This document shows positions 18,074 through 27,421 of a stretch of DNA of 64,000 bases, piece by piece (the first letter of the stretch is position 1; every line of letters starts with the position of its first letter). A program made the translations under genes and the position numbers. This DNA comes from Cryptosporangium arvum DSM 44712. GTDB lineage: Bacteria; Actinomycetota; Actinomycetes; Mycobacteriales; Cryptosporangiaceae. Below the pieces are notes generated by a model. It did no database searches. It was not told the DNA's origin and worked only from the letters and a program-made list of their open reading frames with translations. Location: NCBI RefSeq assembly GCF_000585375.1, contig NZ_KK073874.1:992001-1056000 (forward strand). The letters are read 5' to 3'.

Positions 18074-18970
18074 TCAGCGCACGGGCAGCCGGAGCCGCAT
18101 GACCAGCCGCGACAATTTCATTCCGTGCAGGTCGTCGTGGCAATAAACCGTCTCGTAATAGCGGTGCTGGTACAGCTCGACCGCGACCTCGTTGTCGGGG
18201 TCCACCGTGAGCTGCACTTCTTTGCGGCCGACCTCGCGGAAGTAGCGCTCCGCTTCTTCCATCAGCTGCCAGCCGACGTGGCGGCCGCGGTGGAGGGCGT
18301 GGACCGCCACCGACATCACCCAGCCGCGGCCAGGAGCGACCATGTCGAGAACGCCGAGCAGATAGCCCACCACCCGGCGCTCGCTGCCCGTACCGCGTTC
18401 GGCGACCAGGAAACCGGTGCCGAGCACCTCGGCCAGCTGGAGGAAGAACAGGCGCGGGTAGGGATCGCTGCCGAACGCCGAAAGCTCGACCCGGTGGACG
18501 TCGTCGAGGTCGGCCGGGGTGAACTGGCGGACCCGGTACGCGCCGGCCGGAGCGGGGGTGTCGTCCCGGTCGTCCGACGCCTCGGGAGCCGTGGTGGCCG
18601 CGAACACGATCTCCTCGCAGCCGTGGCCACGCAGGTAGGTGGTGGCGACGCCCACCAGCTCGCGCTCGACACGGGCGTGGTTCTTGTCGACCACGAGCGC
18701 GAGCACCACCCCGCGCGCCTCGATCTGGGCGTGCGGGGTCGCCACCGTGTACCCGACGACCCTGGCGTCGGCATCGCGGGCGACGAGGAAGCCCGGACCC
18801 AGAATGTCCGCCAGCTGCGCGATGAGGAACTTCGGATAAGACTCCGAACCAGTGACCGCCGTAGCGAGAGCGTGTACCGCGTCGAGGTCGGTGGACGAGT
18901 ACGGTGAGACCGAATACTCGTCAGTTGCAGCGCTATTTGTCGCTTGCTTCGCCTGCGTAGACGCGATCAC
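18074..18970 (-). CDS. Tandem GNAT-domain acetyltransferase
   Basis: The protein has about 298 residues and two GNAT-like halves. The first (about residues 25-135) has GFLVARDADARVVGYTVATP and ALVVDKNHARVERELVGVAT. The second (about 145-290) has VVGYLLGVLDMVAPGRGWVM, VHALHRGRHVGWQLMEEAER and VDPDNEVAVELYQHRYYETV, with the acetyl-CoA loop GRHVGWQ intact only in the second. The first half is probably regulatory or substrate-binding. The GTG at 18970 has GAAGGA eight bases upstream; a GTG at 19006 would add 12 residues. The acceptor is unknown. Confidence 0.75.
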   Translation of the reverse strand: MIASTQAKQATNSAATDEYSVSPYSSTDLDAVHALATAVTGSESYPKFLIAQLADILGPGFLVARDADARVVGYTVATPHAQIEARGVVLALVVDKNHARVERELVGVATTYLRGHGCEEIVFAATTAPEASDDRDDTPAPAGAYRVRQFTPADLDDVHRVELSAFGSDPYPRLFFLQLAEVLGTGFLVAERGTGSERRVVGYLLGVLDMVAPGRGWVMSVAVHALHRGRHVGWQLMEEAERYFREVGRKEVQLTVDPDNEVAVELYQHRYYETVYCHDDLHGMKLSRLVMRLRLPVR

Positions 18971-19428
18971 GTCGAGGTTTCCTTCTCGATCTCGATAGAG
19001 GCGCACGACGTTACCACCACCCCGAAGACGCGTATGTAACCGGTCGAACGGTGCTGTGGATGAATGGAATCAGTGGACCTCTGCACGGAAACAACCTGGC
19101 AACTTGGTGTCCGTGGGGCCGTCGACGTGTACCGGCAGCCCGTGCCGCCCGACCGCGGGCGGCGCCGGGACCCAAGCGCCGTTCGAGTCACTGCTGTCTA
19201 TAGGCGACATATCCATCATTTGCCGCCCTCAAACCTGCTCACGCCGGTGCCTGATCACCGCACGTACGCGTGATTTTTGTTCGCCCCAGAGTGATGTGTT
19301 TCCACGAAAGTCACCAGTGTCCGAGTTGACGTAATCGCTTGTCGGTCCGCGCCCCGACCTCTTTGTAGTAGCGTGAAACCATCGCGTTCGGACGGTCGGC
19401 TGATGACGGAAAGGGCGGCGATGCTCCA
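18971..19428. other. Intergenic region upstream of the six-gene operon
   Basis: This 458-bp gap is visibly less GC-rich than its surroundings and separates the divergent GNAT gene and the operon. No convincing full gene is seen. Contents: a bulged hairpin ATCACCGC...GCGTGAT at 19254-19274 followed by five T, which could end a small plus-strand RNA, and a short reading frame from GTG 19373 to TGA 19432 (19 codons) whose stop overlaps the operon GTG at 19429 (GTGA). A weak TTGTCG/TTGTAG promoter-like pair lies near 19339-19368. All are tentative. Confidence 0.4.
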
Positions 19429-21261
19429 GTGAGAATGCAGCCCAGGCAGCAAATGCTGGACATCTGGCGGGCGGTTGCCCGGTTGGGTGCTGATTGGGAA
19501 TGGGGCGGCCGGGACGGACGCAATTCGATTTCCGATGCGGAACAGTTGCTCTGTCTCATGCATCCGGCCTCTCTGGTCGACGGCTTCCAACTGGATCGCC
19601 CAGACGACACCCATCCGGACGCACTCGCGGCGCTCCGCGATATGGGCGACAGCATCGAGATCCCACGCAAGCTCATTCGTGTCCTGATCGATTACATGCG
19701 CACCTACACCGACGAGAACGGTGCGCCCGATTTCTCCGGTGGGTCGTATTTCCGCACCGAGGATCCGGATGACAAAGTCACCGACGAGCAGAGCAAAATG
19801 CACGTCGTCGACTCGTACTCGATGTCGATCACGCTCACGCTCGCCACGCTCGGGTTCGCCCGGGTCTTCCGTAGCCGGGTCACCCGCACCGACCTGCGGT
19901 CGCAGGTCGACGAACTGGAGAAGCTGGCGAGCATCCGGCTGAGCGCGGCGATGGTCGGCCTGCTCAGGAGCTTCACGGTCAACGCGTTCGGCGAGGGAAC
20001 GTTGCCCTGGCGCACGCTCATCAACACGGTGCGACGGCGCGGGCAGTCCGACGACCGCGTCGTCTCCGACCTGCAGGAGCGCCTGCAGGAAGTGCGCGCG
20101 GGGCTGCGCGACCTGTCCATCGGGTCCGGCCAAGTCGAGCTGGAGAACTCCAACCTCCTGTTCGAGTGCGGCTGGACCTGGGGAACGCTGCGCGGCGCTC
20201 CCACGATCGAGACCACCGAACCGGTCGGCGTCCAGGGCAGCGGCCTGGCCGAGCGCCGGCCGCTGCTCTACTTCACGACGATCGCGCTCGCCGGCATCGT
20301 CGACCTGACGAAGGAACGCACCCGCGTCCTGCGCCTGCTCAACGAGGAGCAGCAGCGCCTCGCCGCGGCCCTCCAGCTCCGCTACGACCTGACCCGTTCG
20401 TACTGGGCCACGGTCGCCAGTTCGGAGGCCAGTTCCGACGGCGGCGACCGCTGGCCACTGGAGGAACTGCCCTGGCGCACCAGTGACGGCGAGGAGTCCG
20501 ACTACTTCAGTCTCCTGGTGACGTCCCTGGTCACCCACGACCTCTCGAAGCGGAACGCGCCCGACAGCGACCTCCGCCGGGTCCTCTCGGTGCTCGAGGA
20601 GCTGAGCAGCCGGGGCCGGGTGACCCGGCGAGCCCTCACGAACGACGTCGCGCTGCAGCTGCACACGCCCGGCGTCCCGCTGCGGCTCGGCGGCAGCGAG
20701 GGCGAGGTGAATCCGCGTCTGACCTGGGTCGTGTCCGACTTCTCGGTGATGCTCCTCAAACGGGTCGTGACGCTGGCCCTGCGCGCGCGCAGCCCGGAGC
20801 TGCGCAGCCAGCTCACCACCCTCGCCGACCAGGTGTGGGATCACCTGAACAGCCGCCGCATGGACGACGGCGGCGCCGGCGCCCTCTGGGACCAGCCGGC
20901 GGCGATCTTCCAGGTCGGGCGCGAGTTCGACCTGCCGTCCTGGTACCACACCGAACGCGTCATGGAATGTCTCGTGATGCTCGCCGACCTGGTGCTCGCG
21001 CCGCCCGCACGCAGCCAACGGCTGTACGACATCGCCCGGGACCGGATCGCCGAGGCCGAGCAGCTGTTCGACCGGGAGATCTTCGCCGGCTCGCTGGAAG
21101 CGGGGCCGTCGATCCGCGGGAGCATGCAGGAGCTCCGCGCCCACCTGCGGCGAGCGCAGCGGGTGCTGACCGAGAAGCCCGGCACCGCGGACGCGCTGGC
21201 CTCGGAGGTGCTGCGGCGTCTGGACCAGCTGGCCGCCGCCCAACAGAGCGCGATGGAGTGA
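19429..21261 (+). CDS. SCO2524-family-like protein
   Basis: The 610-residue protein is the first gene of a coupled six-gene operon. I recognise the N-terminal pattern PRQQMLDIWRAVARLG, WEWGGRDGRNSISDAEQLLC as that of the uncharacterised actinobacterial SCO2524 family. The protein is largely alpha-helical, with no signal peptide, membrane helix or known catalytic motif. Its C-terminal 100 residues are Leu/Arg/Glu-rich and likely coiled. The conserved N-terminus and length argue for a core structural or adaptor part. GTG at 19429 or ATG at 19435 can start it. The next gene begins four bases after its stop. Confidence 0.75.
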   Translation: MRMQPRQQMLDIWRAVARLGADWEWGGRDGRNSISDAEQLLCLMHPASLVDGFQLDRPDDTHPDALAALRDMGDSIEIPRKLIRVLIDYMRTYTDENGAPDFSGGSYFRTEDPDDKVTDEQSKMHVVDSYSMSITLTLATLGFARVFRSRVTRTDLRSQVDELEKLASIRLSAAMVGLLRSFTVNAFGEGTLPWRTLINTVRRRGQSDDRVVSDLQERLQEVRAGLRDLSIGSGQVELENSNLLFECGWTWGTLRGAPTIETTEPVGVQGSGLAERRPLLYFTTIALAGIVDLTKERTRVLRLLNEEQQRLAAALQLRYDLTRSYWATVASSEASSDGGDRWPLEELPWRTSDGEESDYFSLLVTSLVTHDLSKRNAPDSDLRRVLSVLEELSSRGRVTRRALTNDVALQLHTPGVPLRLGGSEGEVNPRLTWVVSDFSVMLLKRVVTLALRARSPELRSQLTTLADQVWDHLNSRRMDDGGAGALWDQPAAIFQVGREFDLPSWYHTERVMECLVMLADLVLAPPARSQRLYDIARDRIAEAEQLFDREIFAGSLEAGPSIRGSMQELRAHLRRAQRVLTEKPGTADALASEVLRRLDQLAAAQQSAME

Positions 21262-21265
21262 TGCC

Positions 21266-22177
21266 GTGATCGTCTTCGCGACGTCCGACAAAGGCGGCAC
21301 GGGTCGCTCCGTGACGCTGAGCAACCTCGCCTACCGGCAGGCGCTGCGGGGCGCGGACGTCTGCTATCTGGACTTCGACTTCGGCTCGCCGACCGCGGGC
21401 GCGATGTTCACGATCAACGAGGTCGCACGGGGCACGACCGACGGCGGCACGCACTCCTACCTGGACGGGTCGATCACCGACCCCACGCGTCGAGACGTGT
21501 GGACGACGACCGACCGTGACGAACTGCGTGAGCGGCCGCGGGGCTCCGGCCGGCTCGTCCTGCTGCCGGGTGACAGCGGGGGCGGCGAGTTCTCGCGCCG
21601 CCAGAACGACGTCGAGCGCTGCGCGCGGCTCCTGCGCAAGCTGAACGAGCAGTTCGACTTCTGCCTGGTCGACCTGAGTGCCGGCCGGTCGTACGCCACC
21701 GAGCTGGTCCTGCGGGCCGTCGGCACGCCCGAGCTGGCCACGGCCGAGAGCCGCTGGCTGGTCTTCCACCGCTGGACGAGGCAGCACATCATCGCGGCCT
21801 CCGGTCTGGTGTTCGGTGAACACGGTCTGCTGGCCAACGGCGCGGGCGACGCCGAGGGCCGGCTCGGCGCCGCCGTGCGCTTCGTCCGTACGGCGGTCGT
21901 CGACCCGGACTCCCCGCAGCTGGCGGGCCTGCGTCCGGAGCAGGTCGCCTGGCTGCGCAACTGCAACCGGGAGCTCCAGGAGCTGGCCGGCCGGCACAAG
22001 CTGGGCCGGACGAACACGCTCGGCAGCATCCCGCTCGACCCCGTCCTCCAGTGGCGTGAACAGCTGATCCTCGACGACGACGTGTTCGCGAGGCAGGTCG
22101 CGAACCGAGCGACGATCGACGCGTTCGAGGAGCTCGCCGACCGGTTGACCGACAAGGAGAGCTGGGAGGGCCTGTGA
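21266..22177 (+). CDS. SCO2523-family-like variant P-loop ATPase (ParA/MinD fold)
   Basis: The 303-residue protein starts MIVFATSDKGGTGRSVTLSN. This is the deviant Walker A of ParA/MinD ATPases (KGGxGKS/T): the signature Lys9 is kept but the canonical P-loop Lys is Arg14. The Walker A' region is VCYLDFDFGSP and a Walker B-like strand is FDFCLVDLSAGRS near residue 135. This fits the SCO2523 family, known only as a variant P-loop protein. It probably binds nucleotide and may switch or localise like MinD; hydrolysis is uncertain because of the Lys-to-Arg change. It overlaps the next gene by four bases (GTGA). Confidence 0.82.
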   Translation: MIVFATSDKGGTGRSVTLSNLAYRQALRGADVCYLDFDFGSPTAGAMFTINEVARGTTDGGTHSYLDGSITDPTRRDVWTTTDRDELRERPRGSGRLVLLPGDSGGGEFSRRQNDVERCARLLRKLNEQFDFCLVDLSAGRSYATELVLRAVGTPELATAESRWLVFHRWTRQHIIAASGLVFGEHGLLANGAGDAEGRLGAAVRFVRTAVVDPDSPQLAGLRPEQVAWLRNCNRELQELAGRHKLGRTNTLGSIPLDPVLQWREQLILDDDVFARQVANRATIDAFEELADRLTDKESWEGL

Positions 22178-23142
22178 GCACGGTCGAGGCCTCGTACGGG
22201 GAGGCGACCGCACGACGGAAAGTGAAGTCGGTGCCGCTGGCACACCTGTCCGTCGAGCTGGGGCATCTCTACCACGAGGACTTCGACCCGGAGGGCCCCG
22301 CGCTGGCCCGGCACTTCGCGCGGGTCGCGCCGCAGCTGGAGGCCGCGAAGCTGCTCTACGCGCCGCCGAACGGCAGCCGGCTGCGGATGAGCACGTGCTA
22401 TCTCGTCGACGACTACTTCACCGAGTTCGAGTCACCGACCGTCGTCATTCCCGCGCTGCAACAGGCGGCGGCCTCGGCCGGTCTCCGGATCGACTACCTC
22501 GCCCGGGAGGCCGGGTGCGCGTCCGCCGACGGCGTCGACCTGGCCTCGCTGGTGGAGCGGCGGCTGGTTCCCGAGCCGTCGGCCGACACCGACGGATCCC
22601 GGCCGCCGGTGACGCAGACCGGCTGGTTGAGCAACGGCCGACGTTCGCCGGTCGGCGGCGAGGCCATGGGCCGGGTGCCGCGGTGGGGGCCGCCGGAGGA
22701 GAACTCAGCTCGTCGGCATTCGATTTTTGTCGACGTCGAACTGTGGAGCGAAAAGGACGGCGACCGTACGTGGTCGTGCCCCTTTCTCGCGGCGGTCTGG
22801 CAGTTGATGCGATTGGGAATGCTGCGGTTCCACGGCTCTCCTGTGGCGCAACCGCGATCGGTGGATTTGAACTCCGTCCGCGATTGGGACGAACTCCCCG
22901 CAGTCATTCAACTGAACCAGAAAGCGCAGGCTTTCAGCGCGTACCAGACCTTCTCCGTGCTGTCCGGACGCTTCCTCTCGGTCGAACACGCGGTGCGCGT
23001 GATTCTTGAGCAGGTGAGTGTGGACGATGCGGTGCTGACGCAGATAGCAGAGCGTAGTGAGGGTGAGGGATTCGTCCTTCCGGCCGAAATCGTGCGGCGT
23101 ATCAACTACTTTCTGGATGGGAGTATCGCCGGTGATCCGTGA
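22174..23142 (+). CDS. SCO2522-family-like protein
   Basis: The 322-residue cytoplasmic protein has the conserved stretches LAHLSVELGHLYHEDF, RLRMSTCYLVDDYFTEFESP and QTGWLSNGRRSPVGG, which I associate with the SCO2522 family. No signal peptide, membrane segment or known active-site motif is visible. The motif STCYLVDDYF with paired Asp and Thr could be catalytic but this is a guess. GTG start overlaps the ATPase stop by four bases, and the gene ends in GTGA with the next start, so its product is made in step with both neighbours. Confidence 0.72.
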   Translation: MSTVEASYGEATARRKVKSVPLAHLSVELGHLYHEDFDPEGPALARHFARVAPQLEAAKLLYAPPNGSRLRMSTCYLVDDYFTEFESPTVVIPALQQAAASAGLRIDYLAREAGCASADGVDLASLVERRLVPEPSADTDGSRPPVTQTGWLSNGRRSPVGGEAMGRVPRWGPPEENSARRHSIFVDVELWSEKDGDRTWSCPFLAAVWQLMRLGMLRFHGSPVAQPRSVDLNSVRDWDELPAVIQLNQKAQAFSAYQTFSVLSGRFLSVEHAVRVILEQVSVDDAVLTQIAERSEGEGFVLPAEIVRRINYFLDGSIAGDP

Positions 23143-24101
23143 GCCGGCCTGATCTCGGACCGGGGGCGGACGTGTTGATGTTCGGCGAGGTACACACAGA
23201 ACTCCTGTGGCATTCGGCATCGGTGTCGAACGCGTCGGCCAAGAGAATTCTGTCGTTCCGCCTCGGAGACGACATCCGCAGCTCGACCAGACCGACGTCG
23301 TTCGCGATCTCGCCGGACCTTTATGACGGCTTGGATTGCCGAATCGGGGGTGGCGCACGTCATCGGGCCGTGGGCACCGCCGCTTCGTTCGCTTCGATCA
23401 CCGGTGGTCAAATCGCTCAAGCCGTAACGATGACGTCGATCGTGCACGGCGAGAACAATCGGCGGATGCCGTGGTCGTATTACCTGTCGCGGCCGGGGCA
23501 GGTCGAAACGATCGGAAGCGAACCGGACTGGGAGAACCTGGCCGGGGGATGGGTGAGCGCTGACAAAGCCGGCCCGAATCTCGGGGCGATCAGTGACCGG
23601 TTGCTCGACACCGTGCAGATGTCTCCACAGCTGTCCGGTACCGCGGCGGTCCGTCGCACCGGGCGCGCCCGGCTGCGGTGGAGCTACGCGCGCTCGTCGG
23701 AGCCGGTCCGGCTGACCTACTCGCTGGAGTCGGAGGACCTGCGGGTGCTCCGGTTGACCGGTGGTGACCTGCGGCCCCGTGCCGTCGCCGACTTCGCGGC
23801 CGATCTCGCGTTGCACGACTGGCTGCTCACCGCGCTGGTGGAGGCGATCGACCGCAGTGGGCTGGAGGCCGGGGGAGGGCCCGCCACCGTGCAGAGGCTC
23901 CGGCCGGTGATCGTCCACCTGCTGCACCACTGGATGCCGGCCGCGCGGCTCGACGTCGAAGGCACCGAGCTCTGGCGGGGGCTCGACGCGGCCGCGGGTC
24001 TGAGCCGGCAGTGGGAGAGCCTGGTCGCTCGCGTCCGCGACCAGCTGGCACTGTCTACGATCGGCCTGCTCGGCTCGGTCGCGCTGCCGGAGAACGCATG
24101 A
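23139..24101 (+). CDS. SCO2521-family-like protein
   Basis: The 320-residue protein begins with a GTG overlapping the previous stop. Visible features are VLMFGEVHTELLWHSASVSN near the start, a middle section with GGWVSADKAGPNLG, and a C-terminal helical part ADFAADLALHDWLLTALVEA. No known domain was found beyond resemblance to the SCO2521 family. It is soluble by hydropathy. It is followed by the transmembrane gene with an ATGA overlap, suggesting that the four family proteins and the membrane proteins form one assembly. Confidence 0.7.
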   Translation: MSRPDLGPGADVLMFGEVHTELLWHSASVSNASAKRILSFRLGDDIRSSTRPTSFAISPDLYDGLDCRIGGGARHRAVGTAASFASITGGQIAQAVTMTSIVHGENNRRMPWSYYLSRPGQVETIGSEPDWENLAGGWVSADKAGPNLGAISDRLLDTVQMSPQLSGTAAVRRTGRARLRWSYARSSEPVRLTYSLESEDLRVLRLTGGDLRPRAVADFAADLALHDWLLTALVEAIDRSGLEAGGGPATVQRLRPVIVHLLHHWMPAARLDVEGTELWRGLDAAAGLSRQWESLVARVRDQLALSTIGLLGSVALPENA

Positions 24102-25084
24102 GCCGCGACATCGTCGGGAGCTCAGGTGCCTCCCACGTCCGGATCGCCCGCCGAATCCTCGTCTCGCTCGCGATCGGAGCCACCACCTACGGGCTGACCT
24201 CGCTGGCCGACGCCACGTCGAGCAACGACGCCGCGTTGACCGCGTTGACGCTGTCGGTCTTCCTGGGTGGTGCGGTGCTCGTCGTGCAGTTCCTGATGGA
24301 GATCGACGGCCGGCTCCGCGGGCTCGAGGTTCGGCAGGCCGCCCACGAGAGCCGGGTCGAGGGCGTCGTGCAAGGCGCGTTCGCGCAGATCAACGAGGCG
24401 GCCCGGTTATTCGGCCTGCTGGAGGAGACGGCGGCGCGCTCCGACGCGGTCACCCAGATGGTCCGGCACGCGATCCTGATCAAGCCGAGCCAGCCCGGCG
24501 TCGTCTACGACTTCGCGCAGAGCGAGATCGGCCGGACGTCGTCGTTCCTCAAGGCGTTGGCCGCGGGTGAGGCCACCTACGAGGGCGAGGACCGCGACTG
24601 GCTGATCGGGCTGACCGATTGCACCCGTTCGCACATCGACGCCACCAGCTTCGCCACCGTCGACGCGGGTGGGGAGAGCTTCAGCGACGGCTTCTGGCAC
24701 ACGCCGCTCGGCCGCCGATATCTCAAGGCGCAGAGCGACGCCGTGCACGATCGCGGCGTCACCGTGCGCCGGATCTTCATTTTCGACAAACCTGATTTCG
24801 ACGCGGACTCCGACTTCCGCGATATCTGCGCGATGCAGGTCGCGGCCGGTGTCGATGTGCGGGTGCTCGAGCACAACCGGATCAATCAGTCGCTCATGGA
24901 CCTGCGCGACTTCATTCTCTTCGATGGTGGCGTCAGCTACGAGACGGTGGTGTCGGCGAGTCAGCGGGCGTTCGCCTCGCCGTCCATCCTCAACACCAAA
25001 CTGGTCCTGGACATCGGACAGATCCGCAAGCGAGTGGCGGATTTCGAGTACCTCTGGTCGCTCGGAGAGCCGATATCCGGGTGA
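24098..25084 (+). CDS. Two-helix membrane protein with coiled-coil and C-terminal alpha/beta domain
   Basis: The 328-residue protein has two membrane helices (about residues 19-37 and 47-70), a heptad-like helical stretch (DGRLRGLEVRQAAHESRVEG onward), and a cytoplasmic alpha/beta domain with HDRGVTVRRIFIFDKPDF, AAGVDVRVLEHNRIN and DLRDFILFDGGVSYETV. The strand pattern recalls phospholipase-D-like folds, but no HKD motif is present, so it is more likely a sensor or binding domain. ATG overlaps the SCO2521-like stop by four bases. I do not recognise the family; the membrane anchor may recruit the P-loop protein. Confidence 0.65.
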   Translation: MSRDIVGSSGASHVRIARRILVSLAIGATTYGLTSLADATSSNDAALTALTLSVFLGGAVLVVQFLMEIDGRLRGLEVRQAAHESRVEGVVQGAFAQINEAARLFGLLEETAARSDAVTQMVRHAILIKPSQPGVVYDFAQSEIGRTSSFLKALAAGEATYEGEDRDWLIGLTDCTRSHIDATSFATVDAGGESFSDGFWHTPLGRRYLKAQSDAVHDRGVTVRRIFIFDKPDFDADSDFRDICAMQVAAGVDVRVLEHNRINQSLMDLRDFILFDGGVSYETVVSASQRAFASPSILNTKLVLDIGQIRKRVADFEYLWSLGEPISG

Positions 25085-25090
25085 GGGCCG

Positions 25091-25723
25091 ATGATTGATC
25101 CGCACTTCGTGTTCCTGGCGCTGCTGTTCAATTTCCTCGGTGCCGGCATCTATGTGCGTAAAGCGCTGCTCGGTCGGGTCCGGCCGCACCTCGTCACCTG
25201 GTCGCTGTGGGCGGTGGTGCCGTACGTCGCGTTCCTCGCGCAACTGAGCGAGGGTGTGCGCCTCCCGGCGTTCGTGACGCTCGTGGCCGGGGTCAGCCCG
25301 ACGCTGACGCTGCTGGTCTCGGTGCGCAGCCGGACCGCGCACTGGAAGACCTCCCGCTTCGACATCGGGTGCGGCCTCTGTGCCGTGCTCGGCGTCGTCT
25401 GCTGGGCGGTCTTCGCCGATGCCCGCTACGCGCTGGTCTTCGCGATCGTGGCCGATGCGTTGGCGGCCATCCCGACGTTCCGGAAGTCGTTCACGAACCC
25501 GGAGAGCGAGAACTGGGTCCAGTACGCGTGCCTCACCACGAGCAGCGTGATCACGCTGGCGTCGCTGCAGGTGTGGACGTTCGCCGCGTACGGGTGGGCG
25601 GCGTACCTGGCGCTGCTGGGCGCCGGGTTGGCGGCCACCATCGGGCTGCGGGGACGGCGGGCTCGCGCCGACGAGCGGATCGTCGTGCGCCGGGCCACCC
25701 GCCGGGTGAGCGAGCTGCGCTAG
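25091..25723 (+). CDS. Multi-pass membrane protein of unknown function
   Basis: The 210-residue protein has about six to seven transmembrane helices in short loops, beginning DPHFVFLALLFNFLGAGIYV and including RPHLVTWSLWAVVPYVAFLA. The repeated Pro-Trp pattern in the first helices recalls PQ-loop/SemiSWEET-type transporters, but no clear PQ motif is seen. A basic C-terminal tail (RGRRARADERIVVRRATRR) would be cytoplasmic. It is the last gene of the operon, six bases after the previous stop. Its stop codon lies in a CTAG shared with the stop of the convergent MarR gene. Confidence 0.65.
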   Translation: MIDPHFVFLALLFNFLGAGIYVRKALLGRVRPHLVTWSLWAVVPYVAFLAQLSEGVRLPAFVTLVAGVSPTLTLLVSVRSRTAHWKTSRFDIGCGLCAVLGVVCWAVFADARYALVFAIVADALAAIPTFRKSFTNPESENWVQYACLTTSSVITLASLQVWTFAAYGWAAYLALLGAGLAATIGLRGRRARADERIVVRRATRRVSELR

Positions 25724-26196
25724 TTGTCGGGGCTCGGGACGCGGGCTGCGGCGTCCTGCTGGATGCGTGCGGCCTCGCGGAGGAACCGCGCGATCGAGGC
25801 GAGCTCGGCGTCGTCGAACGACTCGTAGAGCTGGTGCAGCTGCCGCCCCAGCTCCAGGAAGTGCGGCCCCATCACCGTCATTCCCTCGTACACCAGCTCC
25901 ACCAGCACGCTGCGCCGGTCGTTCGGGTTGGGCACCCGCCGGGCCAGCCCTCTGCGCTCGAGCCTCGCCAGCAGGCCGGTCACCGACGCCGGCGCCAGCC
26001 CCGACCGTTCGGCCAGCTCGCCGGCGGTGAGCGGGCCGAAGCGTTCGATCAGGTCGAGCGCGCGCTGGTCGGAGGCGGTCAGCCCGGAGAGCGCCGCCAC
26101 GGCCGCGTGGAAGAGCACGGCGGCGGTGGCCAGCGCCCGTCCGCCGTTGTCGAGCTCCCGTACGAGAGCCTCACGCTCCGTTGACATGGCTGTCAT
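25720..26196 (-). CDS. MarR family transcriptional regulator
   Basis: The 158-residue protein has a winged helix-turn-helix: LTASDQRALDLIERFGPLTA, GLAPASVTGLLARLERRGLA and the wing RVPNPNDRRSVLVEL with the conserved Asp-Arg-Arg. It is divergent from the FAD monooxygenase gene, with a GTTCGGCCGAAC palindrome between them, so it probably represses both. ATG at 26196 (or 26187) starts it. Its TAG stop overlaps the stop of the six-gene operon within CTAG. Confidence 0.9.
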   Translation of the reverse strand: MTAMSTEREALVRELDNGGRALATAAVLFHAAVAALSGLTASDQRALDLIERFGPLTAGELAERSGLAPASVTGLLARLERRGLARRVPNPNDRRSVLVELVYEGMTVMGPHFLELGRQLHQLYESFDDAELASIARFLREAARIQQDAAARVPSPDN

Positions 26197-26211
26197 TCTA
26201 ACCTTTACTTA

Positions 26212-26223
26212 GTTCGGCCGAAC
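26212..26223. promoter_or_regulatory. Perfect palindrome between marR and monooxygenase
   Basis: GTTCGGCCGAAC lies midway between the divergent start codons and is a probable MarR operator. Confidence 0.55.
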
Positions 26224-26242
26224 GAAATAAATGGAGGCAGTC

Positions 26243-27421
26243 ATGCGTGTGTTGGTCATCGGTGGGGGCGTGGCCGGGAGCGCGACCGCGATCGCGCTGC
26301 ATCGGGCGGGCATCGACGCGGAGATCTACGAGCGGCATCCGGGCGTCGCCGACGACGTGGGGCTCTTCCTCACGTTCGCCGGGAACGGCATCGACGCGCT
26401 GCAGGTGCTCGGTGCCGCGGAACCGGTCGAGAAGACGGCGTTCCCGACGCCCCGGATGGTGATGCGCAGCGGCACCGGCCGGGTGCTCGGCTCGATGTCC
26501 AACGGCGACGCCAGCCGCACGATCCGCCGCGCGGACCTGTACCGGGTGCTGCGTGACGAGGTGGTGCGCCGCGGCATCCCCATCCACTACGGAAAGGCCC
26601 TGGCCGACGTCGAGCCGAGCGCGACCGGCGTGCGGGCGCGGTTCGGCGACGGCACCGACGCGAGCGGCGACCTGCTCGTCGGCGCCGACGGCCTGCACTC
26701 GCCGACCCGGAACCTGATCGACCCCGACGCTCCGGCGCCGCGGTACGTCCCGGTGCTGAACACCGGCGGGTACGCGCGCGGCGTGGCCGTCGACGCGGAA
26801 CCGGGAACGTTCACGATGGTCTTCGGCAAGCGCGCGTTCTTCGGCTACGTCCCGGCGCCGAACGGGGAGGTGTGGTGGTTCGCGAACCCGCCGTACCCGA
26901 CCGCGCCGTCGGCGGCGGAGCTCGCCGGGATGAACGCCGGTGGCGCATGGCGTCGACGTCTGCTCGAGCTCTACGCCGACGACGCGACGCCGGCCGTGGC
27001 GTTGATCGAAGCGAGCACGAACCCGATGACCGGGTGGGCCACCTACGACCTGCCCGCGGTGCCGAACTGGTACCGCGACCGGATGGTGCTGGTCGGGGAC
27101 GCGGCGCACGCGACCTCACCCTCGTCGGGCCAGGGGGCGTCGATGGCGATCGAGGACGCGGTCGTGCTGGCCAAGTCCCTGCGTGACGTGCCGGACCGGG
27201 CGGAGGCGCTCGCCACATACGTGGGGATCCGGCGGCCGCGGGTGGAGCGGGTCGTGAAAGCCGGTGCGCGGTCGAGCTCGATGAAGGTGGCCGGGCCGGT
27301 CGGGCGGGTCGTGCGTGACGCGATGATGCCGCTGTTCCTGCCGATGGCGTCACGGATGATGAAGACCGAGTGGATGCACCGGTACCACATCGACTGGGAC
27401 GTGCCCGTCTCGGCGGCGTGA
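26243..27421 (+). CDS. FAD-dependent monooxygenase (PHBH-fold)
   Basis: The 392-residue protein has the Rossmann FAD motif VLVIGGGVAGSATAIALHRA at the N-terminus, a conserved arginine region DASRTIRRADLYRVL, the DG motif GDLLVGADGLHSPTR, and the second FAD motif RMVLVGDAAHATSPSSGQGA. These mark a single-component flavoprotein hydroxylase using NAD(P)H and oxygen. The substrate is unknown; the divergent MarR regulator suggests an aromatic or xenobiotic compound. The ATG at 26243 has GGAGG five bases upstream, which is preferred over the ATG at 26231. Confidence 0.88.
   Translation: MRVLVIGGGVAGSATAIALHRAGIDAEIYERHPGVADDVGLFLTFAGNGIDALQVLGAAEPVEKTAFPTPRMVMRSGTGRVLGSMSNGDASRTIRRADLYRVLRDEVVRRGIPIHYGKALADVEPSATGVRARFGDGTDASGDLLVGADGLHSPTRNLIDPDAPAPRYVPVLNTGGYARGVAVDAEPGTFTMVFGKRAFFGYVPAPNGEVWWFANPPYPTAPSAAELAGMNAGGAWRRRLLELYADDATPAVALIEASTNPMTGWATYDLPAVPNWYRDRMVLVGDAAHATSPSSGQGASMAIEDAVVLAKSLRDVPDRAEALATYVGIRRPRVERVVKAGARSSSMKVAGPVGRVVRDAMMPLFLPMASRMMKTEWMHRYHIDWDVPVSAA

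Follow-up and report, generated by a model that had tools for sequence, protein, structure and literature searches.

The SCO2524-SCO2523-SCO2522-SCO2521 cluster of Cryptosporangium arvum, a candidate modular conflict-type signalling system with an exchangeable partner gene

The genome of Cryptosporangium arvum DSM 44712 is a single contig of 9,195,993 bases. In the stretch analysed here (positions 992001-1056000, 64,000 nucleotides; the window), a cluster containing genes of the SCO2524, SCO2523, SCO2522, and SCO2521 families (2524 to 2521 below) lies at window positions 19429-25723. We propose that these four families form the fixed core of a modular conflict-type (immune-like) signalling system, in which the gene beside 2521 is an exchangeable sensor or output part; judged from gene content, this reading has about an even chance of being correct. 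The main rival of such STAND-linked signalling with an exchangeable part is a role in development. The six genes are as follows.

19429..21261, + strand: gene 1, SCO2524-family core protein, 610 residues; NCBIfam NF040567, 818.9 bits (cut-off 300)
21266..22177, + strand: gene 2, SCO2523-family variant P-loop protein, MinD/ParA-like, 303 residues; NF040564, 475.5 bits (cut-off 200)
22174..23142, + strand: gene 3, SCO2522-family core protein, 322 residues; NF040566, 432.3 bits (cut-off 200)
23139..24101, + strand: gene 4, SCO2521-family core protein, 320 residues as listed; NF040565, 290.6 bits (cut-off 150)
24098..25084, + strand: gene 5, membrane-anchored DUF6879 protein, 328 residues; Pfam PF21806, 29.5 bits (cut-off 23.9), residues 195-314
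25091..25723, + strand: gene 6, multi-pass membrane protein, 210 residues; no Pfam or NCBIfam family

An initial annotation, made from the letters of the window, had described six coupled genes at this place. The open reading frame (ORF) coordinates confirm the arrangement, with all six ORFs on the + strand; two junctions are gaps (4 and 6 bases), and at the other three the ORFs overlap by 4 bases each. Its assignment of genes 1-4 to the four SCO families was checked with the NCBIfam models, as it had suggested. All four models matched far above cut-off (1.9 to 2.7 times the curated values), over nearly the full profile length and far beyond chance, and the gene order is that of the named families. 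Gene 2, annotated as a ParA/MinD-fold protein, is indeed MinD-like by profile matches. Hydropathy gave one strong transmembrane (TM) segment in gene 5 (residues 45-63) and four in gene 6. The NCBIfam names of SCO2521-SCO2524 carry no function, and their one-line descriptions mention neither the DUF6879 gene, nor the partner swap, nor the link to a GNAT gene reported below.

Relatives were found at 427 places in a scan of GTDB contigs, and the best 80 of the 427 were kept as named loci. Gene order was examined in these 80 loci, 20 other stretches, and 60 further stretches, chosen by hand and not at random; two of the 60 were KGGVGR places of the window's genome and not clusters. Genes were called by a purpose-written script, and clusters with a called SCO2524 of at least 540 residues were kept (153). 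Removal of copies more than 97% alike left 132 clusters. The window's own copy fell below 540 residues in the calling (a late start was chosen) and was added by hand, giving 133 clusters for the component count. Components were counted in six frames within 9 kb of SCO2524, which also covers the DUF6879 genes of two loci (L077 and L088) skipped by the gene caller.

The core is conserved in content and order. In the six-frame count, 2523 is present in 132 of the 133 clusters, 2522 in 129, and 2521 in 127. The window has 2524, 2523, and 2522 adjacent and collinear with 2521 beside them, the layout of a SCO2521-SCO2524 cluster. The first three genes are likewise adjacent and collinear in 118/132 clusters, so the neighbourhood survey does not refute the claim that the genes are kept together; 2523 and 2522 overlap by exactly 4 bases in 95 of these 118. 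The strand of 2521 relative to 2524 was the same in 58 of 132 clusters, opposite in 56, and not called in 18. In contrast, 2521 and the DUF6879 gene share a strand in all 74 cases in which they are adjacent. These counts indicate that 2521 and gene 5 form a sub-unit that is inverted as one piece, and that the genes are not generally all co-transcribed. The production of all six products in fixed ratio, proposed in the initial annotation, therefore fails as a general rule. Its six-gene unit holds for the four core genes plus gene 5, but not for gene 6. Of the 100 loci compared (the 80 named ones and 20 others), a homologue of gene 6 was found only in one sibling genome of the same genus (L125, G002), and gene 6 is probably a lineage-specific passenger.

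The place beside 2521 is filled by different proteins. Across the 133 clusters, the slot holds a membrane-anchored DUF6879 protein in 91, a protein termed NACHT32 in 22, a two-TM protein in 4, and none of these in 16 (at least one of the 16, L091, is explained by a contig end). DUF6879 and NACHT32 occur together in none of the 133. NACHT32, about 1450 residues long, consists of DUF4062, a STAND ATPase, and HEAT repeats. Its Pfam matches to DUF4062 and HEAT are over cut-off, as is NPHP3_N (27.6 vs 24.8 bits), whereas NACHT is under (23.3 vs 26.7). Its gene takes one of two positions: on the opposite strand in the interval from 2522 to 2521, or behind an inverted 2521. In 46 chosen genomes, the first 700 residues of NACHT32 gave 18 one-piece matches, of which 16 were in the cluster; a match in pieces inside the cluster was seen in G687. 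No match including the first 150 residues was found in 16 genomes without SCO2524.

Further replacements were seen in single clusters or small groups. In Planotetraspora thailandica (L072), a NACHT-FGE protein stands at the slot (NACHT 44.1 bits, FGE 144.1 bits, both over cut-off). Its gene converges on the 2521 end, and four genus mates in the SCO2524 tree have DUF6879. The four clusters with a two-TM protein in place of DUF6879 belong to one clade. Two loci of one genus (L163 and L200) carry a protein of 263 or 299 residues with one or two TM segments at the slot. In three loci (L177, L187, and L188; L187 is outside the 132), DUF6879 is missing and a divergent protein of about 1600 residues is encoded; that of L177, the one scanned, is rich in WD40 repeats. 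Microbispora corallina (L060) also lacks DUF6879, and its protein f96, with one weak TM segment, overlaps the SCO2524 start by 4 bases. In a sibling species of the window's genus (L123), a TIR-domain gene lies 63 bp upstream of SCO2524 and matches PADLOC ThsB at 2e-11. Two candidates were not accepted as slot proteins. A 433-residue protein with a TM segment and a glyoxalase domain (L193) was dropped because it lies on the far side of 2521. A TIR-Roc gene (L088) was not counted, being 2.9 kb away on the other strand of a cluster that has DUF6879.

On a SCO2524 tree of 130 rows (L199 and L191 were left out as odd), the presence of DUF6879 changes at least 13 times, 12 of them forced by starred branches. 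What recurs is the loss of DUF6879, in some cases accompanied by another protein at its position. A constant core with an exchangeable part in one slot was found, with few independent STAND gains.

The core proteins suggest how such a system might work. MinD/ParA ATPases are defined by the deviant Walker A motif KGGxGK(T/S), with a catalytic lysine whose loss should stop hydrolysis. SCO2523 shares the K-G-G start of this motif, and a PDB profile search gave MinD-type matches. Unlike these ATPases, it carries KGGTGRS instead of KGGxGKS, and K9, GGTG, and R14 are invariant in 31/31 aligned members. Gene 2 thus falls outside the MinD/ParA ATPase definition, because the lysine position is an invariant arginine. 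With R14 in place of lysine, SCO2523 is expected to be a nucleotide-bound switch or scaffold, which would bind nucleotide but probably not hydrolyse it. Among general families, SCO2523 is closest to KGGVGR, with 46.4 bits, short of the cut-off of 90. One over-cut-off KGGVGR member is encoded elsewhere in the window's genome (L196, C1:573000-587000). It was called at 1288 residues and combines TIR and TPR domains with a below-cut-off AAA match; a second protein beside it gave no Pfam match, and L196 looks like a separate conflict-type locus.

SCO2522 has many invariant polar residues (H24, E28, H31, D79, D80, D107, R111, E112, and H182) and no PDB relative by profile at E values up to 1. PDB profile searches of SCO2522, SCO2521, DUF6879, and SCO2524 gave nothing useful; the best match was to YacP (0.011, a short stretch of SCO2524 only). 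A PLD-like fold of DUF6879, an impression gained from its sequence alone, is not put forward. The last 82 or so residues of SCO2524 recur, at 44.8 and 41.5 bits, in a repeat protein at two loci of one genus of family f33 (Streptomycetaceae by inference only). These loci (L141 and L142) encode a Trypco1-like protein, a trypsin-like protease, and a repeat protein of about 420 residues that ends in the SCO2524 C-terminal segment. The Trypco1 Pfam match is over cut-off in L142, the only one of the two tested. The best NCBIfam match of the protease is Avs1b, far under cut-off. For an adaptor shared between core and effector, as in the effector-associated domain (EAD) principle, the observation here is the recurrence of this segment in the two Trypco1 loci only.

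We propose the following model, which goes beyond gene content in complex formation, adaptor role, nucleotide sensing, trigger, and immune purpose. A cytosolic core would hold the system at rest and couple through 2521 to the partner. In this complex, 2524 would serve as scaffold and carry a helical C-terminal adaptor segment. 2523 would be a P-loop protein that binds nucleotide, probably without hydrolysis because its Walker-A lysine is an invariant arginine. 2522 would be a possible enzyme. The partner in the window would be the membrane-anchored DUF6879 protein, and the membrane would then be the site at which a trigger is sensed or answered. STAND-type proteins hold the partner's place in some relatives; elsewhere, such proteins oligomerise on sensing an invader.

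Two kinds of known systems invite comparison. Defence proteins of the STAND/NACHT type include Avs- and bNACHT-like proteins. NACHT32, with DUF4062, a STAND ATPase, and HEAT repeats, and the NACHT-FGE protein of L072 resemble them; in contrast, the window's own partner, a DUF6879 membrane protein, lacks an ATPase domain. The available part of Kaur et al. (2020; PMC7159879) describes ternary conflict systems in multicellular bacteria, with constant cores, variable effectors, and MinD/ParA-like domains predicted inactive. The cluster is similar to these systems in its fixed core and variable partner, its MinD/ParA-like domain predicted inactive, its STAND and FGE-type partners, its several copies per genome, and its multicellular hosts. 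We propose that the cluster follows the core-effector logic described there, its partner acting as sensor or output. Unlike the MoxR-vWA ternary systems, genes 1-6 gave no MoxR AAA+ or vWA match in Pfam or NCBIfam. The string 'SCO25' is absent from the main text of that article (supplements not covered).

Outside the cluster, some DUF6879 genes adjoin NB-ARC genes. Besides gene 5, the window's genome has two DUF6879 genes, each directly upstream of an NB-ARC-TPR gene (NB-ARC 40.1 and 37.2 bits against a cut-off of 23.5); a helicase with a REase_MTES_1575 domain lies in one of the two neighbourhoods. These stand-alone loci (L213, C1:2487500-2495500; L214, 3306000-3314000) are possibly a two-gene conflict unit of their own. 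Among 27 DUF6879 stretches from relatives, which include clusters of this system, a downstream NB-ARC-like ATPase was judged by eye to be present in at least three more. A search that did not extend to subscription papers and supplements found no paper on KGGVGR or DUF6879.

The distribution of the system is patchy. SCO2524 is present in 7 genomes among the window's genome and 60 relatives, and in 37/394 genomes and 8/138 genera of the class. SCO2522 occurs in the same 37 genomes, which indicates that the two families travel together. In family f33, 22/121 genomes match SCO2524, one of them by the shared end segment only; in family f15 (Micromonosporaceae), 112/200 genomes in 30/44 genera match, 111 over cut-off. 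Several copies are found in siblings of the window's genus: G001 has two full-length copies and one in two pieces, and G003 has three. Neighbouring and opposed cluster copies at L121, L122, L123, and L124 in these two genomes, among them the SCO2524 copy in two pieces, are a case of gain and loss within the genus.

Several observations weigh against an immune-like role or an exchangeable slot. With PADLOC-DB 2.0.0, the only match from genes 1-6 was that of SCO2523 to the candidate PDC-M28B (1.4e-5), and neither NACHT32 nor the NACHT-FGE protein gave a PADLOC match at 0.001. No phage-challenge data were found. A search of 72,556 plasmid and 50,697 phage records gave no match for SCO2522, in contrast to many defence systems that are mobile. 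On the tree, the NACHT32 swap takes 2 changes when compared with DUF6879 rows and 3 when all rows are included. It is nearly confined to one clade, so the mutual exclusivity of DUF6879 and NACHT32 represents one or two events, not 22, and a Fisher test that treats these related rows as independent is not applicable. Relatives of NACHT32 also occur off the cluster, in one piece in G554 and G635 and in pieces in G696, G651, and G003. Two of the 16 genomes without SCO2524 (G055 and G551) match NACHT32 at 39-40% over residues ~160-700. For many of the 16 clusters without a partner, no replacement was recognised, and a relative of the L060 protein f96 coexists with DUF6879 in L067. The KGGVGR family matches weakly in 14/14 control genomes and over cut-off in none, which makes its link to SCO2523 loose. 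Outside its own family, the SCO2524 end segment was found only at the two related loci, apart from one marginal match in 394 genomes. The phenotype of the neighbouring gene SCO2525 counts on the same side.

This phenotype is the starting point of the strongest alternative, developmental or growth-control signalling in filamentous actinobacteria, which we consider unlikely although better placed than the other two. The core and a membrane partner would relay an envelope or hyphal-growth signal, and the SCO2525 methyltransferase and the GNAT protein would modify a component. In the available portions of the respective articles, SCO2525 is called necessary for normal growth of Streptomyces coelicolor, with sco2521-sco2526 listed as an operon in the HupS regulon (PMC11472566); it is also called morphogenetic (PMC6344877) and linked to S-adenosylmethionine (PMC3017869). 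SCO2525 lies within 9 kb of 72/133 clusters and is immediately upstream and collinear in 57/131. However, the patchy spread described above for f33, f15, and the class is odd for a developmental essential, and the replacement of the partner by STAND-type and two-TM proteins also speaks against it. The window's genome had no SCO2525 match, in a search that likewise matched no control genome and so does not prove absence.

A biosynthetic or envelope-modifying operon is improbable. SCO2522 would be its enzyme, the methyltransferase and the GNAT protein would be tailoring enzymes, FAD (flavin adenine dinucleotide) oxidases lie nearby, and the membrane proteins would be exporters. The many invariant polar residues of SCO2522 would suit an enzyme, and ThiO/DAO-like FAD enzymes of two different families stand near many clusters (L043-L120, various). 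One family (f6) lies near 55/133 clusters, mostly in Micromonosporaceae, and the other (f8) near 28/133, mostly in Streptosporangiaceae. But these are different families in different host groups, where the flanks look syntenic; f6, f8, and the flanking metabolic genes f9-f13 were set aside as parts of the system, since synteny within host groups is the likely cause. Moreover, Pfam and NCBIfam place no known pathway enzyme in the core, and a biosynthetic operon does not explain STAND proteins at the partner slot. The initial annotation had preferred a membrane-linked signalling system to metabolism; this is supported as the more likely of the two, as is its reading of the genes as an operon. 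Taken together, its interpretation is partly supported; it had missed that gene 5 is replaceable, the STAND-type substitutes, the KGGTGR P-loop without the usual second lysine, and the divergent GNAT.

We give just as little credence to a selfish addiction-type unit with the partner as toxin and the core as antidote: DUF6879 genes elsewhere adjoin helix-turn-helix genes (at least 7 of the 27 stretches, by eye), a setting that the available part of Kaur et al. (PMC7159879) reads as toxin-antitoxin-like for DUF397, but the core comprises four large conserved proteins, SCO2522 is in no plasmid or phage record, and 16/133 clusters have none of the three partner families.

Other features surround the cluster in the window. 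An acetyltransferase gene lies upstream.

18074..19006, - strand: divergent two-domain GNAT acetyltransferase; Pfam Acetyltransf_1, 8.1e-20

This gene was found at 3.5e-27 by a profile of cluster-neighbour GNATs before its own inclusion. Related GNAT genes stand near the cluster in Frankia, Kibdelosporangium, Actinocrispum, and family f33 genomes, and one lies within 9 kb in 21/133 clusters. Downstream of the cluster (window 25720-27421) lie a minus-strand gene for a MarR-like regulator and a FAD monooxygenase-like gene; similar genes adjoin DUF6879 in sibling G001, as judged by eye. A promoter scan found none, and terminator-like sites numbered 3 against 2.7 expected. Most of 30 aligned SCO2521 homologues start at the motif MLxxGEVHTGLL, 11 residues inside the gene 4 ORF. 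The true start of gene 4 may be GTG 23172 and not 23139, in which case one of the three overlaps becomes a 29-base gap with gene 3.

In its widest form, the conflict-type reading describes a new actinobacterial innate-immune-like class. A four-protein core on a hydrolysis-dead MinD-like switch would license interchangeable partners, namely a DUF6879 membrane protein in most lineages seen and NLR-like (nucleotide-binding leucine-rich-repeat receptor-like) STAND proteins elsewhere. We advance this form tentatively, with somewhat less than even confidence. The NACHT32/STAND substitutes resemble animal and plant immune sensors. If the slot truly links to STAND proteins, it would offer a new route to the coupling of immune-like switches to membranes in multicellular bacteria, and it might also explain why the methyltransferase neighbour gene affects S. 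coelicolor growth. If the proposal is true, DUF6879 and the SCO2521-2524 families would be united in one mechanism. It provides a first testable mechanism for five protein families that so far bear no more than a locus or DUF number and that the scanned GTDB contigs encode at 427 places.

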